Shown here in pieces: positions 1-7,373 of a stretch of 34,710 nucleotides of DNA. Below the pieces are notes generated by a model. It was given only the letters and a program-made list of their open reading frames with translations. It was not told where the DNA came from and made no database searches. Position numbers and translations under genes: made by a program. This DNA comes from an uncultured Flavobacteriales bacterium. GTDB lineage: Bacteria; Bacteroidota; Bacteroidia; Flavobacteriales_D; Crocinitomicaceae. Position 1 is the first letter of the stretch; each line of letters begins with the position of its first letter. The DNA is taken from positions 1 to 34,710 of the forward strand of contig CAJQPH010000040.1 in assembly GCA_905480165.1 (NCBI GenBank). Direction: 5' to 3'.

Positions 1-657
1 GCATCTACCAAACACAAATTTGCCCTAAAAAGCAGTACCGCTCCGATCGCAAATAAAACATCACCTCGTCAAAAAATACTGAGAGCATTAGCAAATGCCA
101 ACAAATGGTCCTTTGAATTGGGACAAGACAATCGATTCCGAAAGCTTCAAAACTTTCATTTCTTCGATTCAAGACCCATCGAATACAAAGAAAACATTGT
201 TCAGGGCACCTATGATGAAACGAATGTGGATTGGGAGATTTCCGATGTTACTTTTTCTGAGGGAGCCATGCTTGCTAAAGAGGTTTACCATTCTACTATG
301 CAGTATATCAAATTACCCGCAGAGGTGACACCATTTATTTTAAGACGAGAAGAGCTTGTTGATAGAGTATTTGATCGTGTTCGTGTTTTTGGCACCATGA
401 AAGACATCAATTTTAAGAGCAACCCAGAATTTTCAAAACTATATTACCTTAAAGGAGATCAAAGAGAAAAAATAAGATCTCTATTTAACGATGACCTTCT
501 GGACTTTTTTCTTGAAAACCCAATTGAACATGTTGAGTGTAATGGTAAGGAGCTATTAGTTGTAGGAGGAGTTGGAATAACAAAAACCGAAAATATTGTT
601 CCGAGGATCAAGTCAATAGCTGAGCTTGTAAAAATAATGGATAACCGAAGCCAATGA
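1..657 (+). CDS. Unrecognised protein, 5' end outside the window
   Basis: The frame is open from base 1 without a stop, giving about 218 residues of a protein whose start lies upstream of the window. No ATG appears before residue 72 in this frame, so a TTG at 118 is an unlikely start and the gene should be treated as partial. The visible part is soluble-looking, with mixed alpha/beta character and no signal or membrane segment. It ends in a hydrophobic strand-like stretch (LLVVGGVGI) followed by a probable helix. I do not recognise the family. Its TGA overlaps the ATG of the next gene by four bases (ATGA), so the two are probably translated from one transcript. Confidence 0.7.
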   Translation, partial: ASTKHKFALKSSTAPIANKTSPRQKILRALANANKWSFELGQDNRFRKLQNFHFFDSRPIEYKENIVQGTYDETNVDWEISDVTFSEGAMLAKEVYHSTMQYIKLPAEVTPFILRREELVDRVFDRVRVFGTMKDINFKSNPEFSKLYYLKGDQREKIRSLFNDDLLDFFLENPIEHVECNGKELLVVGGVGITKTENIVPRIKSIAELVKIMDNRSQ

Positions 658-1784
658 ATTCACAAAAGCGATATGCTTCTATAAATGAAGTGAAAATTGC
701 TTTTATAAGTATTCTTGCTCTACTCTGCTTTTTCACTTCCTGTATTCCTGTAAAAAGTCTTTTTTTAGGGCATCCAGATGCAAAAGACTTGCATCGCTTT
801 AAGAATAAAGAAATAACCTCTGACAGTTGCTTTTCATTTCAAAAATCAATCAAAATTGACGGCTTCAAAGTCAACGACTGGACAACTGATAAACCCAATT
901 TTAAACCACTTATTGATGTATTAAAAGAACATAGTGTACGTGCGTTTGTCCTCATTCAAGACGACACGATCAAATCTGAATACTACCGACAAGACTTGGA
1001 TAAATCTTCAATGCACCCATCATACTCTTTAGCAAAATCTTTCATCTCCTGTTTAATTGGAATTGCAATAAACGAAGGACATATTCAAAATGTAAATCAA
1101 AAAGTACAAACATTCATCCCTGAATTAGCAAATGGAAAAGGAGAATTACTGACCATAAAACATTTACTTAATCATACTTCTGGAATTAAATTTAGTGTGA
1201 GTCAAGATGCCAGATTGTATTATGGAAATAATGTCAGCGCTGAACTTGAAAAAATTGTATTCAGTCATAATCCAGGTGAAAAACAAGCGTATTTAAACCT
1301 AAACACACAGCTTTTAGGTGTGATTATTAAAAGATCTACAGGGATGAGTGTTTCCGAGTACGCACAACGAAAACTATGGGCTCCCATAAATATGTGCAAC
1401 ACAGGGTTTTGGAGCGTAGACGGTTTAGGAGTAGAAAAGTCATTTTGTTGTCTTTCAGCCACAGCGTTAGATTTCGCAAAATTTGGAAGACTGTACCTTA
1501 ATAAGGGAGAATGGAATAAAAATCAAGTTTTTAACACTGACTGGTATAATCAATCTATAAGAAGAGATACTTCTCAAGGCAGCAGCTATAATTACAATTA
1601 TTCTTGGCATATTGGACTCAAAGAATATGAAGACTACATGGCCATTGGTTTGTATAAACAGCATATTTACATCTCACCAAAAAAGAAGATAATCATTGTT
1701 CTATTAAATGATCGAGAAAACAAATTAAAAGCAGAACGAATAAATTGGTGGTACATCTTTCGCCAACTCGTTGACCAGGTTTAA
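654..1784 (+). CDS. Serine hydrolase, class C beta-lactamase/PBP-like family, predicted lipoprotein
   Basis: This 376-residue protein has a lipoprotein-type leader ending FFTSC (Cys30), so it is probably lipid-anchored in the envelope. The active-site motifs of the beta-lactamase-related family are present: SxxK at Ser125-Leu-Ala-Lys128 and YxN at Tyr213-Leu-Asn215. Family landmarks such as HLLNHTSG (170-177) and FWSVDG (252-257) are also visible. In this family the serine forms an acyl-enzyme, with substrates ranging from peptidoglycan peptides to esters and amides. The real substrate cannot be read from sequence. A second member lies at 6144-7373 and shares an EKxFCC motif. The gene starts inside the stop codon of its upstream neighbour. 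Only 50 bases separate it from the propeller sensor gene, so the three may form an operon. Classical drug-resistance beta-lactamase activity is not implied. Confidence 0.85.
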   Translation: MNSQKRYASINEVKIAFISILALLCFFTSCIPVKSLFLGHPDAKDLHRFKNKEITSDSCFSFQKSIKIDGFKVNDWTTDKPNFKPLIDVLKEHSVRAFVLIQDDTIKSEYYRQDLDKSSMHPSYSLAKSFISCLIGIAINEGHIQNVNQKVQTFIPELANGKGELLTIKHLLNHTSGIKFSVSQDARLYYGNNVSAELEKIVFSHNPGEKQAYLNLNTQLLGVIIKRSTGMSVSEYAQRKLWAPINMCNTGFWSVDGLGVEKSFCCLSATALDFAKFGRLYLNKGEWNKNQVFNTDWYNQSIRRDTSQGSSYNYNYSWHIGLKEYEDYMAIGLYKQHIYISPKKKIIIVLLNDRENKLKAERINWWYIFRQLVDQV

Positions 1785-1834: not shown

Positions 1835-4800
1835 ATGCTAAACCTTTCCATTAGCACAATTAAAGTACACCATTTGTATAGAATCCTTATTTATTGCGTC
1901 GTTATTCTATTTTATTCTTGTGATGATCGAAAAATTCCTACATCAAAAAAGGAAGTGGAACTTCGTTACAGGAAGTATGATGCATCTGGCCCCTATAACA
2001 CCAATCCCATATTTGGAAATGGCATCGAAAACTCAGTTAACTCAAAGAATGAATTAATTTCCGGGAAAAATAAAACAAAAATAGACGGAAAACGGATAGA
2101 TTCTAGAATACTCAAGCAGCCTAAAACTTATAAGCTTGAAGCTCCAAAACGAATAAATACCCGAGGAATAATTAATATTCCATTAGACTTAAATAAAGTT
2201 CAGAAACGAATGGTGGATTCTAGCACCTTTTTGAAAACGGCATTTGGTCCTTCCAAAATGGATCCTACAAAAAAAACAAGAATTAAATTAAGCAAAGTTA
2301 AGACGAAAATACCATCATTAGCTGATGCAAAAACACCAATATATAAAGGGAAAGCGATTAAAAACATTAAATATCTTGATGTAAAACAAGGAACCAGTTC
2401 CTCCTATATATGGGATGTCTTTCATGACAGTAAAAATCAAATATGGATGGGGACTAACGGTGGCGGTGTAAGCGTATATACTGGAGATAAATTTCGGCAT
2501 TTCAATGAAGATCATGGCTTGAGTAATAATTTCATTTGGTGTATTGAAGAAGATCGACAAGGCAACATGTGGTTTGGGACTTCTGGCGATGGGGTTTGTA
2601 TGTTTGACGGAAACAGTTTTTTTCGATTAGAATTTGAAAAAGGCTTTAATGCTACTGATATTAGATTTATTTATGAAGATAAATCGGGTCTCATTTGGAT
2701 TGGCTCTAAAGATTATGGGGTTTTTACATACAACGGGGAAACACTCACTAATTACACCGTAAACGAAGGTTTACTCAGTAATAAAACGGTGAGTATCTAC
2801 GAAGATGATAAAAACCGTAAATGGATTTGTACCTCAGAAGGGATAAATATTATTGAAGGAGATTCCACTGTGTGTATCACAAAAAATGAGGGACTTAAGT
2901 CGAATGACATAAGTAGAATTATTCAAGATAGTCAAGGGAACTACTGGATTGGATATATAGAGCATGGAATCGATATCTATAATGGAGAGTCATTTACAAA
3001 CTACAATTCAAAAAACTTCTTGAAAGGAGACAACATTTATGACCTCTTATTGGATGATCATGAAAACGTTTGGATTGCCTCATACAATGAGGGGGTTTGT
3101 CAGTATGATGGCAAAGAATTCGTTTGGATAAATGAAACCAATGGATTGAGTGGAGAACATGTATTAAGCCTGGAAAGTGATAAATCTGGCAACATGTGGA
3201 CAGGAACTGATGGTGATGGAGTTGACATCATAAATTTAAGATCATTCGAGAATTTAAATGAAGGAAATGGTATAATTAACGATTACATATATGCAATCTG
3301 CGAAGACCAACATCATCAAATCTGGTTTGGTGGAGAAGATGGAGGGCTCATGATGTATAAAGAGAATCACTATTTCGAAATGCCACAATTTAATACCTTA
3401 TTAAGTAAACAAATAAATAAAATTTATGAGGATAGTAAAGGGAACATATGGATTGCTACAGAAAAAAAGGGTGTAATTAAAATTCAGGATTCGGAATTTG
3501 TGTTTTTTAAGGAGGAAAATGGGCTAATCTCCAACCAGATATATGAAATAATCGAAGATGATAATGGAATAATGTGGTTCGGGTCATCTGAGGATGGTCT
3601 TTGCTCTTTTGATGGAAGTTTTTTTACCCATTATAATGAAGAAAATGGTCTTTATACCAACCAAATAAGAACAATCTCAAAAGATTTTGAAGGCAATTTG
3701 TTTTTTGGTACATGGGGAAGCGGTGTTATTAAATACGATGGTGTATATTTTCATCAAATCACTGAAAAAGAGGGCTTACATGGTTCTATTATAATTTCAT
3801 CATATAATGACTCGAAAGGTCGAGTCTGGTTTGGGTCATTGTCCCATGGCGCTTGTATGTTTGACGGGTCTAGATTTCACTATTTTTCCACTAAAACTGG
3901 TCTAAGTAATAATAAAATATGGTCAGTTATTGAGGATACGAGTTCCTCTTCGATTTGGATCGGCACAGAAAACGGTTTAAATCAACTACAGAATATTGAG
4001 CTTGGAGTCAATCAAAAGCACAATTGCATGTCGTATAATTGGAATGATGGGATTCGCTGTGTTGACTTTTTAAAATCCAGCGCAATCGTTGATCATTCGG
4101 GGGCGCTTTGGTGGGGTACAGGAAAAGGGCTCACTAAGCTGATAAGAAAAAACCTTCCCGCAAATAATTCGATCCCTATTCTAAGGTTAAGAGATATTTC
4201 AATCAACAACAGATATATTGATTACTTAAACCCTCCTGATAGTTTAAAATCAAAAATCTCCTATTCATCGGTTAATACATTCGAAAATGTACCCAAGGAT
4301 TTGGTGCTTTCATATGATAACAATCACCTTACGTTTGTTTATTCTGCAATTAATTGGTTTAAACCACAAGCCATCACCTACAGCTATTTGTTAGAAGGTT
4401 CAGATGAGAATTGGAGTCCTCCCTCAAGTGAAACACATGCTGATTTTACGAATATTCCCGATGGCTCTTATATCTTCAAAGTAAAATCGAGGATTTCTGG
4501 TGGCGAATGGTCCGAACCCTTAGAATATCACTTTACAATTACTCCCCCTTGGTGGAATACTTGGTGGGCCCAAACCAGTTATATCCTATTCGGCGTCTTG
4601 CTCATTTGGTTATTCATTCTGCAACGAACCAGAAGACTCAGATTGCGACAGCTGAGACTTGTTAAAGAAATTAAGTCCGCTACGAGTGAAATTAGAGAGA
4701 AAAAGAATGAAGTTGAACGCCAAAAGAGCTCAAATCTCGAAATGTCAAAAAGAATTCTTGAACAAGACAAACAGTTGATTTTGAGTGCAACAGCGAATAC

Positions 4801-5710
4801 CGTCGCGCATAGCCTGAATAGTCCATTAGGCGCGATCAAGGCCGGTGCTGAAAGCATCATCTATATTTACAATGATATATTTTCCAATGTGATACAAAAA
4901 TGTTCTCCTCACCAAATCACTTTTGGGTATAACTACGCAAAAAAATATAACGGCAGTCTCATGGAATCAGGAATGGAATCTCTGTCTAGAATTAAAAAAA
5001 TCAAAGAATATATCAGTGAAAATTTTAAATTAAAGGAAGAAGAATGTGATGAACTCAGCGTATTAATTAGCAAAGTTTATATTGAATCCGAATTAAACTC
5101 TCTTACTGAATTTATCATCAAACAAGAAAACAAGAAAGAAGTAATAAAAATGATTACCACCTTGGTCACATTTGAACAAATCACTTCGAATACTTTAAAT
5201 GCCACTCAAAAATCTTCAAAAGTAGTTGAGTCCCTTAAAAATGCTCTAAAAAAAGGACGTGCTGATAAAAAAGTATCGGTTAATGTTCACAAAAGCATTA
5301 GAGCTGTAATGGAAGTTATAGACGACGAGATTCAAAAGTCCGGAGTGGTAAAAAACATTATAGATAAAGATGTATTCTACAATAAGACCAATGAATATAA
5401 GCTTTTTCAACTTTGGTCCAATCTATTTACATTGCTCCTAAATAGTGCTGATAAAGAAGTACTAATAAAAATACGATCAGAAAAACAAAATGGAAGCTTG
5501 ATTATTCGTTTTGAAGTAAATTACAAACTCAGCGTGCATTTATTTGATGATAGTGTATATGACATGATTATGAATAAAAAGCAAAACTCAATTGATCTCT
5601 CCAGAGCTGTAATTAAAGATATTATTCAAGAATACCATGGAAGTATTTCTATTGATAACCTACAACAGATAAGTATTGTCAATATTCAAATACCAAATGA
5701 TCAGAAATAA
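1835..5710 (+). CDS. Two-component-type propeller sensor with a degenerate histidine kinase module
   Basis: This is a 1291-residue envelope sensor. Residues 1-29 form a hydrophobic leader ending FYSC (possible lipobox Cys29), then a basic 150-residue linker. From about 185 to 770 there are 14 repeats of roughly 42 residues of the form IxxIxEDxxGNIWxGTxxxGVxxYDG, which are Reg_prop blades and suggest two seven-bladed propellers. A Y_Y_Y domain follows (about 840-902, preceding ITPPWW), then one membrane helix (913-930), a coiled coil (935-980) and a DHp-like helix with His992 in AHSLNSPLGA. The C-terminal ATPase part keeps the fold outline, but the N-box asparagine is replaced (QLWSNLFTLLLN, 1192-1203). 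No DxGxG is visible, and the usual GLGLS reads SIDLS (1252-1256). There is no receiver or DNA-binding domain and no response regulator nearby. Related propeller sensors detect glycans, but the ligand here is unknown. Confidence 0.9.
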   Translation: MLNLSISTIKVHHLYRILIYCVVILFYSCDDRKIPTSKKEVELRYRKYDASGPYNTNPIFGNGIENSVNSKNELISGKNKTKIDGKRIDSRILKQPKTYKLEAPKRINTRGIINIPLDLNKVQKRMVDSSTFLKTAFGPSKMDPTKKTRIKLSKVKTKIPSLADAKTPIYKGKAIKNIKYLDVKQGTSSSYIWDVFHDSKNQIWMGTNGGGVSVYTGDKFRHFNEDHGLSNNFIWCIEEDRQGNMWFGTSGDGVCMFDGNSFFRLEFEKGFNATDIRFIYEDKSGLIWIGSKDYGVFTYNGETLTNYTVNEGLLSNKTVSIYEDDKNRKWICTSEGINIIEGDSTVCITKNEGLKSNDISRIIQDSQGNYWIGYIEHGIDIYNGESFTNYNSKNFLKGDNIYDLLLDDHENVWIASYNEGVCQYDGKEFVWINETNGLSGEHVLSLESDKSGNMWTGTDGDGVDIINLRSFENLNEGNGIINDYIYAICEDQHHQIWFGGEDGGLMMYKENHYFEMPQFNTLLSKQINKIYEDSKGNIWIATEKKGVIKIQDSEFVFFKEENGLISNQIYEIIEDDNGIMWFGSSEDGLCSFDGSFFTHYNEENGLYTNQIRTISKDFEGNLFFGTWGSGVIKYDGVYFHQITEKEGLHGSIIISSYNDSKGRVWFGSLSHGACMFDGSRFHYFSTKTGLSNNKIWSVIEDTSSSSIWIGTENGLNQLQNIELGVNQKHNCMSYNWNDGIRCVDFLKSSAIVDHSGALWWGTGKGLTKLIRKNLPANNSIPILRLRDISINNRYIDYLNPPDSLKSKISYSSVNTFENVPKDLVLSYDNNHLTFVYSAINWFKPQAITYSYLLEGSDENWSPPSSETHADFTNIPDGSYIFKVKSRISGGEWSEPLEYHFTITPPWWNTWWAQTSYILFGVLLIWLFILQRTRRLRLRQLRLVKEIKSATSEIREKKNEVERQKSSNLEMSKRILEQDKQLILSATANTVAHSLNSPLGAIKAGAESIIYIYNDIFSNVIQKCSPHQITFGYNYAKKYNGSLMESGMESLSRIKKIKEYISENFKLKEEECDELSVLISKVYIESELNSLTEFIIKQENKKEVIKMITTLVTFEQITSNTLNATQKSSKVVESLKNALKKGRADKKVSVNVHKSIRAVMEVIDDEIQKSGVVKNIIDKDVFYNKTNEYKLFQLWSNLFTLLLNSADKEVLIKIRSEKQNGSLIIRFEVNYKLSVHLFDDSVYDMIMNKKQNSIDLSRAVIKDIIQEYHGSISIDNLQQISIVNIQIPNDQK

Positions 5711-5733: not shown

Positions 5734-6141
5734 TTACTTTATAATGACTCCTTTTTGTCCAAGTGTGTTAATCATCTGCATGTTTTCTGAGCATATTGAT
5801 TCCGCAGGAAACACAAATCGTTTATCATACATAATATCATTCACCCAAAAACTCACCCAATATTCATTTGACAGCCCAAATACTTCCGGCATAATCGGCT
5901 CAATCTTTGCTGCCTCATTTGGCAGCAATAATTCAATACAATGCCTTAAAGTAGAAGTTCTAATTTTATCACCTGTCTGGGCATTTTCGCCATAACCAGT
6001 AGTAGATACAATGATCCCCTCCATGATGTCATCTCTTAAATTAAGAAGATAGGCATAATACACTTTTTCATTCTCTACAAGCAACTCAACTATAGCAACT
6101 GATACGTTTTCAACTTTCGGCCCCTTCAATTCATCTTTCAT
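5734..6141 (-). CDS. Conserved flavobacterial protein of unknown function (135 aa)
   Basis: This small soluble protein has no signal peptide and no membrane segment. It starts at an ATG two bases after the stop of the serine hydrolase gene, so it is the last gene of the operon running from 10624. Recognisable stretches are KVENVSVAIVE near the N-terminus, STLRHCIELL (about 63-72) and a C-terminal KRFVFPAESICSENMQMI. From memory, proteins of this layout occur widely in Flavobacteriia and are sometimes misnamed as a phenylalanyl-tRNA synthetase subunit. At this size, with no class II synthetase motifs, it is not a synthetase. Function unknown. Confidence 0.8.
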   Translation of the reverse strand: MKDELKGPKVENVSVAIVELLVENEKVYYAYLLNLRDDIMEGIIVSTTGYGENAQTGDKIRTSTLRHCIELLLPNEAAKIEPIMPEVFGLSNEYWVSFWVNDIMYDKRFVFPAESICSENMQMINTLGQKGVIIK

Positions 6142-6143
6142 TG

Positions 6144-7373
6144 TTATCTGATTTGAGAAACAATTTTATCTGACATATTTAAATACCTATACAAATCGAT
6201 AGTATGCCCTATTTTATCATCATGTTTTTGTCGGAAAACTTTGTCATTTATCCTGTTTTCTGGAATTTCATAGTGTGCGTCCCTTTTACTTCCTAAACGT
6301 ACTATAACCCTGTTTTTACTTGGTATTGCAATCATATACTGTCCCATTAAACCTCGGCAATAATAGATTGGATCGCCATTGTTTTTATAAATCCATGTAT
6401 GCCAGCCATATCGCATATTAGGGACGTTTTCTTTTGTTTTCATGGTTGGGGTTTCTAGCATTTTATTCATATACCAATTCGGTACAATCGGTTTCCCATT
6501 ATAAAAACCATTGTTTAGAAGTAATTGTCCTAAAAGGGCATAATCACGAGCCGTTGCATACATACAGCAAAATGCTTTTTCATCGCCCCCCTCTTTATCC
6601 AAACTCCAAAAAGCATCATTTCGAGCACCCATAGGAATCCATAATTTTTCTTCAGTATATTGATTGATTGACTTTCCAGTTGCCTTTTCTAAAATAAATC
6701 CTAAAATCTGGGTATTACCACTTTGATAATTGAAGTTTACACCAGGTTTATCAATAACGCGCAATCTGGTTACTAAACCGTATAGGTCAGTTCCATAATA
6801 ACCCTCTGCAGCCTCAGACAAAGGATTTTTTCCGCTTTCAACCCAATCGAAACCAGCAGACATCGTCAATAAATGGCGTATGGTGATTTTCTCTCTTCCG
6901 TTTTTATTAAATTCTGGAATATACTTCCCTGCCAAATCTTCCACACTCGTTATCTTACCTTCTTCAATTGCAATTCCTATGAGCATTCCAATAACCGACT
7001 TTGCCGCTGAAAAAGAATTTGATACTTGATTCTGAGTATGTTCATCAAAATATTTCTCATAAACCAGGGTGTCTCCCTGAAAAATCAAAAAAGCCTTGGT
7101 ATCCATTTTCTGATGATAATCGAGATCCGTTTTCGTTAGTTTAACAGAAGCATCCTTTTCTACAATAAAATGGTAAGGTTGATTTGATTTTTTAATGGTG
7201 TTTACTGGAAATAATTCTAAATCATAGATTGTTGGTCCTAATTTTCCTCTAAGGTATGTTTTAGCGATACCTGAATAAAGATAATATCTGCCTGAAAGAA
7301 GAATAAATAAATTAACAATAACCACAAGGGTTAAAAGACTATAAGCTGTATATTTTAATGTTTTTTTAATCAA
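6144..7373 (-). CDS. Serine hydrolase, class C beta-lactamase/PBP-like family, membrane-anchored
   Basis: This 409-residue protein has an N-terminal hydrophobic segment (about 8-28) without a lipobox, so it is probably anchored with the enzyme domain in the periplasm. SxxK is Ser122-Ala-Ala-Lys125. The second motif is Tyr216-Gln-Ser218, a YxS variant of YxN. HLLTMSAG (167-174), FWSLD (255-259) and EKAFCC (265-270) match the paralogue at 654-1784, which shows that the two are duplicates or close family members. The only start in front of the leader is TTG at 7373; no ATG or GTG lies in frame between the lipB stop and the leader, so a weak start is likely. It follows lipB by eight bases and precedes the small conserved gene by two. 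Substrate unknown. Confidence 0.85.
   Translation of the reverse strand: MIKKTLKYTAYSLLTLVVIVNLFILLSGRYYLYSGIAKTYLRGKLGPTIYDLELFPVNTIKKSNQPYHFIVEKDASVKLTKTDLDYHQKMDTKAFLIFQGDTLVYEKYFDEHTQNQVSNSFSAAKSVIGMLIGIAIEEGKITSVEDLAGKYIPEFNKNGREKITIRHLLTMSAGFDWVESGKNPLSEAAEGYYGTDLYGLVTRLRVIDKPGVNFNYQSGNTQILGFILEKATGKSINQYTEEKLWIPMGARNDAFWSLDKEGGDEKAFCCMYATARDYALLGQLLLNNGFYNGKPIVPNWYMNKMLETPTMKTKENVPNMRYGWHTWIYKNNGDPIYYCRGLMGQYMIAIPSKNRVIVRLGSKRDAHYEIPENRINDKVFRQKHDDKIGHTIDLYRYLNMSDKIVSQIR

Follow-up and report, generated by a model that had tools for sequence, protein, structure and literature searches.

A conserved propeller receptor with a retained histidine and a degenerate kinase domain, a candidate pseudokinase of an uncultured Flavobacteriales bacterium

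The window analysed here is a 34,710-nucleotide contig (CAJQPH010000040.1, assembly GCA_905480165.1) from an uncultured Flavobacteriales bacterium of the Crocinitomicaceae. One of its genes encodes a protein in which a propeller sensor is joined, across a predicted membrane helix, to a dimerization and histidine phosphotransfer (DHp) domain and a catalytic and ATP-binding (CA) domain (Table 1). The initial annotation proposed that this protein may be a pseudokinase, one that either dimerises with another kinase and thereby modulates it or relies on a protein partner for sensing. The first part of this proposal is supported: all nucleotide motifs are lost in three orthologues and the remaining domain is under purifying selection, which together argue that the protein is catalytically inactive. 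The second part is plausible. A Pfam search of the 1291-residue protein returned neither HisKA nor HATPase_c above the cut-off, and no receiver or AraC-type output in the same chain, which ends with the CA domain. In agreement with the reported lack of a receiver domain and of an adjacent regulator gene, the whole 34.7-kb contig contains no receiver and no HATPase_c match.

Three paralogues of the C-terminal part of the protein are encoded in the window's own genome, and many full-length relatives occur across 86 genomes of the genus; 95 different family members from these were read for motifs and downstream genes. The assemblies are fragmented, that of the window's genome being about 81% complete, so further kinases or receivers may be missing. 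A motif rule of our own sorts the 95 members into 68 intact and 27 degenerate; a reference of 63 kinases was taken from the intact set by leaving out a few atypical members (L139-L141, L072). Three atypical members (L139:2100-4622, L140:4389-5906 and L141:4428-6977) read HRGLG for GSGLG and have no receiver gene. The histidine that had been recognized in AHSLNSPLGA is His992, shared by all 63 intact and all 27 degenerate relatives; the latter also keep N995 and P997 without exception. The N-box asparagine, correctly described as lost, corresponds to position 1200, which is Asn in 63/63 intact relatives, Leu in the window protein and hydrophobic in all 27 degenerate members.

The absence of DxGxG requires more care. 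The G1 motif is indeed gone, with positions 1228 and 1230 being Asn and Gly in 63/63 intact relatives and Val and Tyr in the window protein, but part of the departure is a family trait. Because the reference kinases themselves read NNGP, the missing DxGxG alone is not telling; the window protein has lost even the NNGP. The G1-box aspartate is Asn in all 63 motif-intact kinases (window position 1228, nucleotides 5516-5518). In the G2 box, SIDLS replaces the glycine box as had been stated: positions 1252 and 1254 are Gly in 63/63 intact relatives, and Ser and Asp here. The CA domain is of unchanged length and retains W1194 and N1196.

The family alignment reveals a further loss that the initial annotation did not contain. 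Directly after the histidine, all 63 intact relatives have Asp and 24/27 degenerate ones have Glu; this acid is lost solely in the window lineage, which reads Ser in the window protein, Ser in orthologue L033 and Gly in orthologue L137. The Thr four residues after the histidine is also replaced in the window protein, by Ser. A search of relatives for the same losses had been suggested; L033 (85% identical) and L137 (55% identical) share them, which makes sequencing error and chance very unlikely. Between the window protein and L033, synonymous differences number 21 in DHp helix 1, about 30 in the insert between the DHp helices (61 sites) and 28 in the CA domain (77 sites). The nonsynonymous counts for the same segments are 0, about 30 (257 sites) and 34 (325 sites), with p = 2e-7 for the CA domain. 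The excess of synonymous changes is significant in every domain tested, the CA domain included. The window lineage is under purifying selection, and sequencing error or decay is disfavoured both by the orthologues and by these substitution counts.

Table 1. Features of the candidate pseudokinase gene and of its upstream neighbour in the window.
Feature	Positions	Strand	Basis
Whole gene of propeller pseudokinase, 1291 aa	1835..5710	+	Open frame; Pfam Reg_prop 1.2e-48, Y_Y_Y 1.3e-10; orthologues in same length class
N-terminal hydrophobic segment ending in Cys29, probably a signal peptide or lipoprotein signal	1835..1921	+	Reading of the sequence; putative
Propeller region, about residues 190-760	2402..4114	+	11 Reg_prop stretches (Pfam); solved relatives 3v9f, 4a2l; borders approximate
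Y_Y_Y domain, residues 843-902	4361..4540	+	Pfam
Predicted single membrane helix, about residues 912-932	4568..4630	+	Hydrophobic stretch; putative
DHp helix 1, residues 975-1016	4757..4882	+	Family alignment; substitution counts against L033
His992, expected phosphate acceptor, followed by Ser993 instead of Asp/Glu	4808..4810	+	Family alignment
DHp insert, about residues 1017-1122, family trait	4883..5200	+	Equal length in motif-intact kinases
DHp helix 2, about residues 1123-1157	5201..5305	+	Family alignment
Degenerate CA domain, residues 1158-1291	5306..5707	+	Profile of motif-intact family CA domains, E 3.3e-9; weak model resembles CA folds
Altered N-box QLWSNLFTLLLN, residues 1192-1203, Asn at 1200 replaced by Leu	5408..5443	+	Family alignment
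Altered G1 box, VNYKLSV instead of NNGPxIP	5516..5536	+	Family alignment
Altered G2 box SIDLS, residues 1252-1256	5588..5602	+	Family alignment
Serine hydrolase (beta-lactamase fold), upstream neighbour	654..1784	+	Pfam PF00144, 7e-29; kept upstream in L033 and L137

The stretch of about 120 residues between the DHp helices, which had been counted among the signs of inactivity, is present (117 residues) and is not tied to inactivity. By the same measure it is 116-119 residues long in motif-intact kinases, and a stretch of about 105-120 residues is found in both the intact and the degenerate sets. Because motif-intact kinases carry it, the insert is a family trait that says nothing on activity, and it was rejected as a sign of inactivity. 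A spacing of 203-209 residues from the histidine to the N-box also occurs in further Bacteroidota kinases, as against roughly 107-122 in several others listed. The DHp domain and insert of the window protein match the profile of this extended-DHp family at E 2.3e-34 (family-profile E-values, here and for the CA domain, refer to a nominal database size of 1000). No solved structure covering the insert was convincing by sequence, the literature collection searched contained no papers on the extended-DHp family or on propeller pseudokinases, no relatives were found in viral contigs, and PADLOC gave no match.

Intact and degenerate members differ in what lies downstream. Among members with at least 500 bp of downstream sequence, a small stand-alone receiver gene follows directly in 52/65 intact and 0/26 degenerate cases (Fisher p = 2e-13, uncorrected for kinship); the 13 intact members that have none include tandem kinases and atypical members. 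In the receiver consensus, the acidic pocket and the phosphorylated Asp are retained together with a Ser and the Lys. The window's own genome holds such an intact kinase with its receiver (G000:C173, L066:5625-9649), and a gene for an H-NOX gas sensor (PF07700, E 2e-47) lies just upstream of it. In the fetched family loci there are 12 H-NOX open reading frames, and a family kinase follows closely behind most of them. In L066, L069, L070, L077, L078, L081, L083, L116, L159, L160 and L162, an H-NOX gene neighbours an extended-DHp kinase, and a stand-alone receiver usually comes next. H-NOX, kinase and receiver form a recurring cassette of the genus, probably for sensing nitric oxide or another gas. 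An intact member is present in 17/18 genomes with a degenerate member and in 26/68 others (p = 2.5e-5, uncorrected for kinship; the genome sets were compiled by hand, with a few members and fragments unread).

The DHp domain has not diverged evenly from the active-looking kinases. The post-His half of helix 1 has an identity of 0.48 to intact kinases against a baseline of 0.56, whereas the corresponding values are 0.25 against 0.75 for the pre-His half, 0.18 against 0.35 for the insert and 0.25 against 0.52 for helix 2. The 17 residues before the histidine are identical in the three orthologues yet differ from those of active kinases. Permutation of positions gives p = 0.0003 for this retention pattern in the window lineage, 0.04 in a degenerate group of TPR/PAS type and 0.66 in one of TPR/GAF type; the segment borders were chosen after the alignment had been seen, the three sequences are related and so dependent, and the test is uncorrected for kinship. 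In known kinase-receiver complexes (HK853-RR468), the receiver docks below the histidine on helix 1 and on helix 2. Since receivers dock there, a kept post-His half beside a diverged pre-His half, insert and helix 2 slightly favours receiver docking over pairing with an active kinase, leaving the choice undecided.

Taken together, most weight is given to action on a receiver, with pairing to an active kinase next. The reading preferred here, at a probability of roughly 0.4, is that this receptor pseudokinase acts through its DHp domain on the stand-alone receiver of its active relatives. Its ancestry would lie in the histidine kinase family whose active-looking members are paired with a stand-alone receiver and often preceded by an H-NOX gene. 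By sensing something outside the inner membrane, the propeller would shift the DHp bundle into another conformation. The protein presumably cannot load its own histidine from ATP; instead, the stand-alone receiver of the active relatives (here, the one behind the C173 kinase) would dock on the kept face after His992. The docked receiver could have phosphate passed to it, have phosphate taken up from it, or merely be bound, as in PhyT, ChpT or DivL. Inactivity, docking, the partner and the direction of phosphate flow are the parts of this scheme that we infer. The observations behind it are the motif loss with the His, N995 and P997 kept, the post-His retention, the selection on helix 1, the receiver split between intact and degenerate members, their co-occurrence and the C173 cassette.

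Known systems offer partial parallels. The closest relatives by descent are the extended-DHp kinases of the genus (for instance G000:C173, L066), homologous to the window protein over the whole length of DHp, insert and CA; unlike them, the window protein has a propeller sensor, has lost the nucleotide motifs and the post-His acid, and has no receiver gene. Sensors of the hybrid two-component system (HTCS) type carry an active kinase, a receiver and an AraC-type domain. HTCS-type sensors (3v9f, 4a2l) share the Reg_prop propeller and Y_Y_Y with the window protein, in which a degenerate extended DHp-CA module follows, with nothing after it. A kept histidine with a degenerate CA domain is a trait shared with kinase-derived phosphotransferases (PhyT, ChpT, Spo0B). 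The nearest experimental parallel, which by analogy favours the receiver reading, is PhyT (PhyP) of Sphingomonas melonis: like the window protein it combines a membrane anchor, a periplasmic sensor, a kept histidine and a degenerate ATPase domain, and its cell also contains active kinases and a single-domain receiver (PMC5898713). ChpT of Caulobacter pairs a His-bearing DHp with a CA-like domain unable to bind ATP (PMC3433190); unlike the window protein, ChpT is soluble and has no sensor. DivL of Caulobacter, kinase-derived and devoid of kinase activity, reads a single-domain receiver (PMC4211667); it has Tyr in place of the histidine that the window protein keeps.

Several points weigh against action on a receiver. 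Phosphate chemistry at His992 may be impaired, because the post-His acid is lost, unlike in other degenerate members. DHp helix 2, which also contacts the receiver in known complexes, is down to 0.25 identity, and the post-His half of helix 1 has a second role in forming the dimer core. The co-occurrence and retention tests share the lack of a kinship correction, with segment borders of our own choice. Binding and phosphotransfer are predictions from sequence. The structure models are too weak to judge the nucleotide pocket: AlphaFold2 of residues 936-1291 from a two-row alignment reached a pLDDT (predicted local distance difference test) of 38.5. Modelled alone, the CA domain reached a pLDDT of 52.4 with a predicted template modelling score (pTM) of 0.50, still weak, and the other four models 35-41. 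This weak model matches CA-domain structures from histidine kinases and from related GHKL kinases; ChpT (4fmt; Z 8.2, root-mean-square deviation 3.3) is among these matches and does not stand above those to active kinases.

The strongest competing explanation is a heterodimer: through its DHp domain, the pseudokinase would join an active kinase of the family and inhibit it or adjust its activity, in the manner of RetS with GacS. RetS of Pseudomonas aeruginosa, a homologue of sensor kinases, acts on another kinase by way of the DHp (PMC12148439), and ChrS, like RetS, exemplifies kinase pairing and modulation. Common ancestry of the DHp-insert module (the profile match at E 2.3e-34) and co-occurrence with intact members are consistent with such a heterodimer. 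However, the insert (0.18) and DHp helix 2 (0.25), its would-be shared interface, have strongly diverged from the active members, and the pre-His half has been replaced by lineage-specific sequence. This divergence of insert and helix 2 from possible partners also sets the window protein apart from RetS, and the proposed pairing is, on balance, rather unlikely.

Less probable again is a partner outside the H-NOX/receiver pathway, reached for instance through the conserved altered CA surface, with the histidine kept for structure. The 17 identical pre-His residues and the altered CA motifs common to the three orthologues would fit this, as would a gene lying far from any two-component gene, but the histidine is kept in 27/27 degenerate members and these co-occur with intact ones. 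It is very improbable that the protein works as an active kinase whose nucleotide pocket is unusual: CA length, W1194 and N1196 are kept and the weak model resembles CA folds, yet the replacements take in the second N-box Asn, the two glycine boxes and the post-His acid. A decaying gene without function is the least credible option, for although the gene occurs in just 3/86 genomes and its CA domain is among the faster evolving parts, the frame stays open in three orthologues down to 55% identity and synonymous changes are significantly in excess in every domain tested, CA included.

The receiver reading can be extended, doubtfully, to a network in the genus in which several kinase-dead paralogues (propeller, TPR/PAS, TPR/GAF), each lacking its own receiver, act on the receivers of H-NOX-linked active kinases. 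If so, dead receptors would both read and tune a hub made of stand-alone receivers, and the extended DHp would be the connector they share. Histidine-kinase-derived pseudokinases are so far known from a handful of cases. Here, one genus holds 27 conserved degenerate beside 68 motif-intact members, told apart by the absent partner receiver gene. They form a ready-made collection in which to study what a kinase-like receptor retains once catalysis is lost: the histidine in all, and the post-His face in the window lineage. In appearance the active members are gas-sensing kinases that come with a stand-alone receiver, so whether a hub is shared could be tested with a few purified proteins.

The two other degenerate groups, of TPR/PAS type (L067:3600-6494 and relatives) and TPR/GAF type (L068:1577-4069 and relatives), are conserved genus-wide, keep the histidine and the following acid, have lost the N-box Asn and have no receiver gene. 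Trees set the window lineage apart from both, beside an intact kinase (support 97/91), and this placement suggests a separate loss of the kinase motifs in the window lineage. An approximately unbiased (AU) test does not reject one clade of all degenerate members (p = 0.08), long branches being present, so the data are also compatible with a single origin.

The propeller part has close matches in only 3/86 genomes of the genus, and two others hold matches of about 30% identity. The flanking serine hydrolase genes lie 565-1024 bp apart in nine relatives, with no pseudokinase between them, and 4.4-4.5 kb apart in three genomes, with the pseudokinase in between. As the pair adjoins in the nine and is split in the three, the gene was likely gained in the window lineage; loss elsewhere is also possible. 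In the window the two hydrolases, related and of beta-lactamase fold, occupy 654-1784 and 6144-7373. Between the pseudokinase and the second lies a conserved 135-residue protein (5734-6141) with no Pfam match, which neighbours the pseudokinase in L033 and L137 as well. Among distant propeller relatives, as read from sequence without a profile, L034:1641-5282 and L036:1062-6053 appear to end in a SpoIIE-type phosphatase, and L035 in an ordinary kinase.
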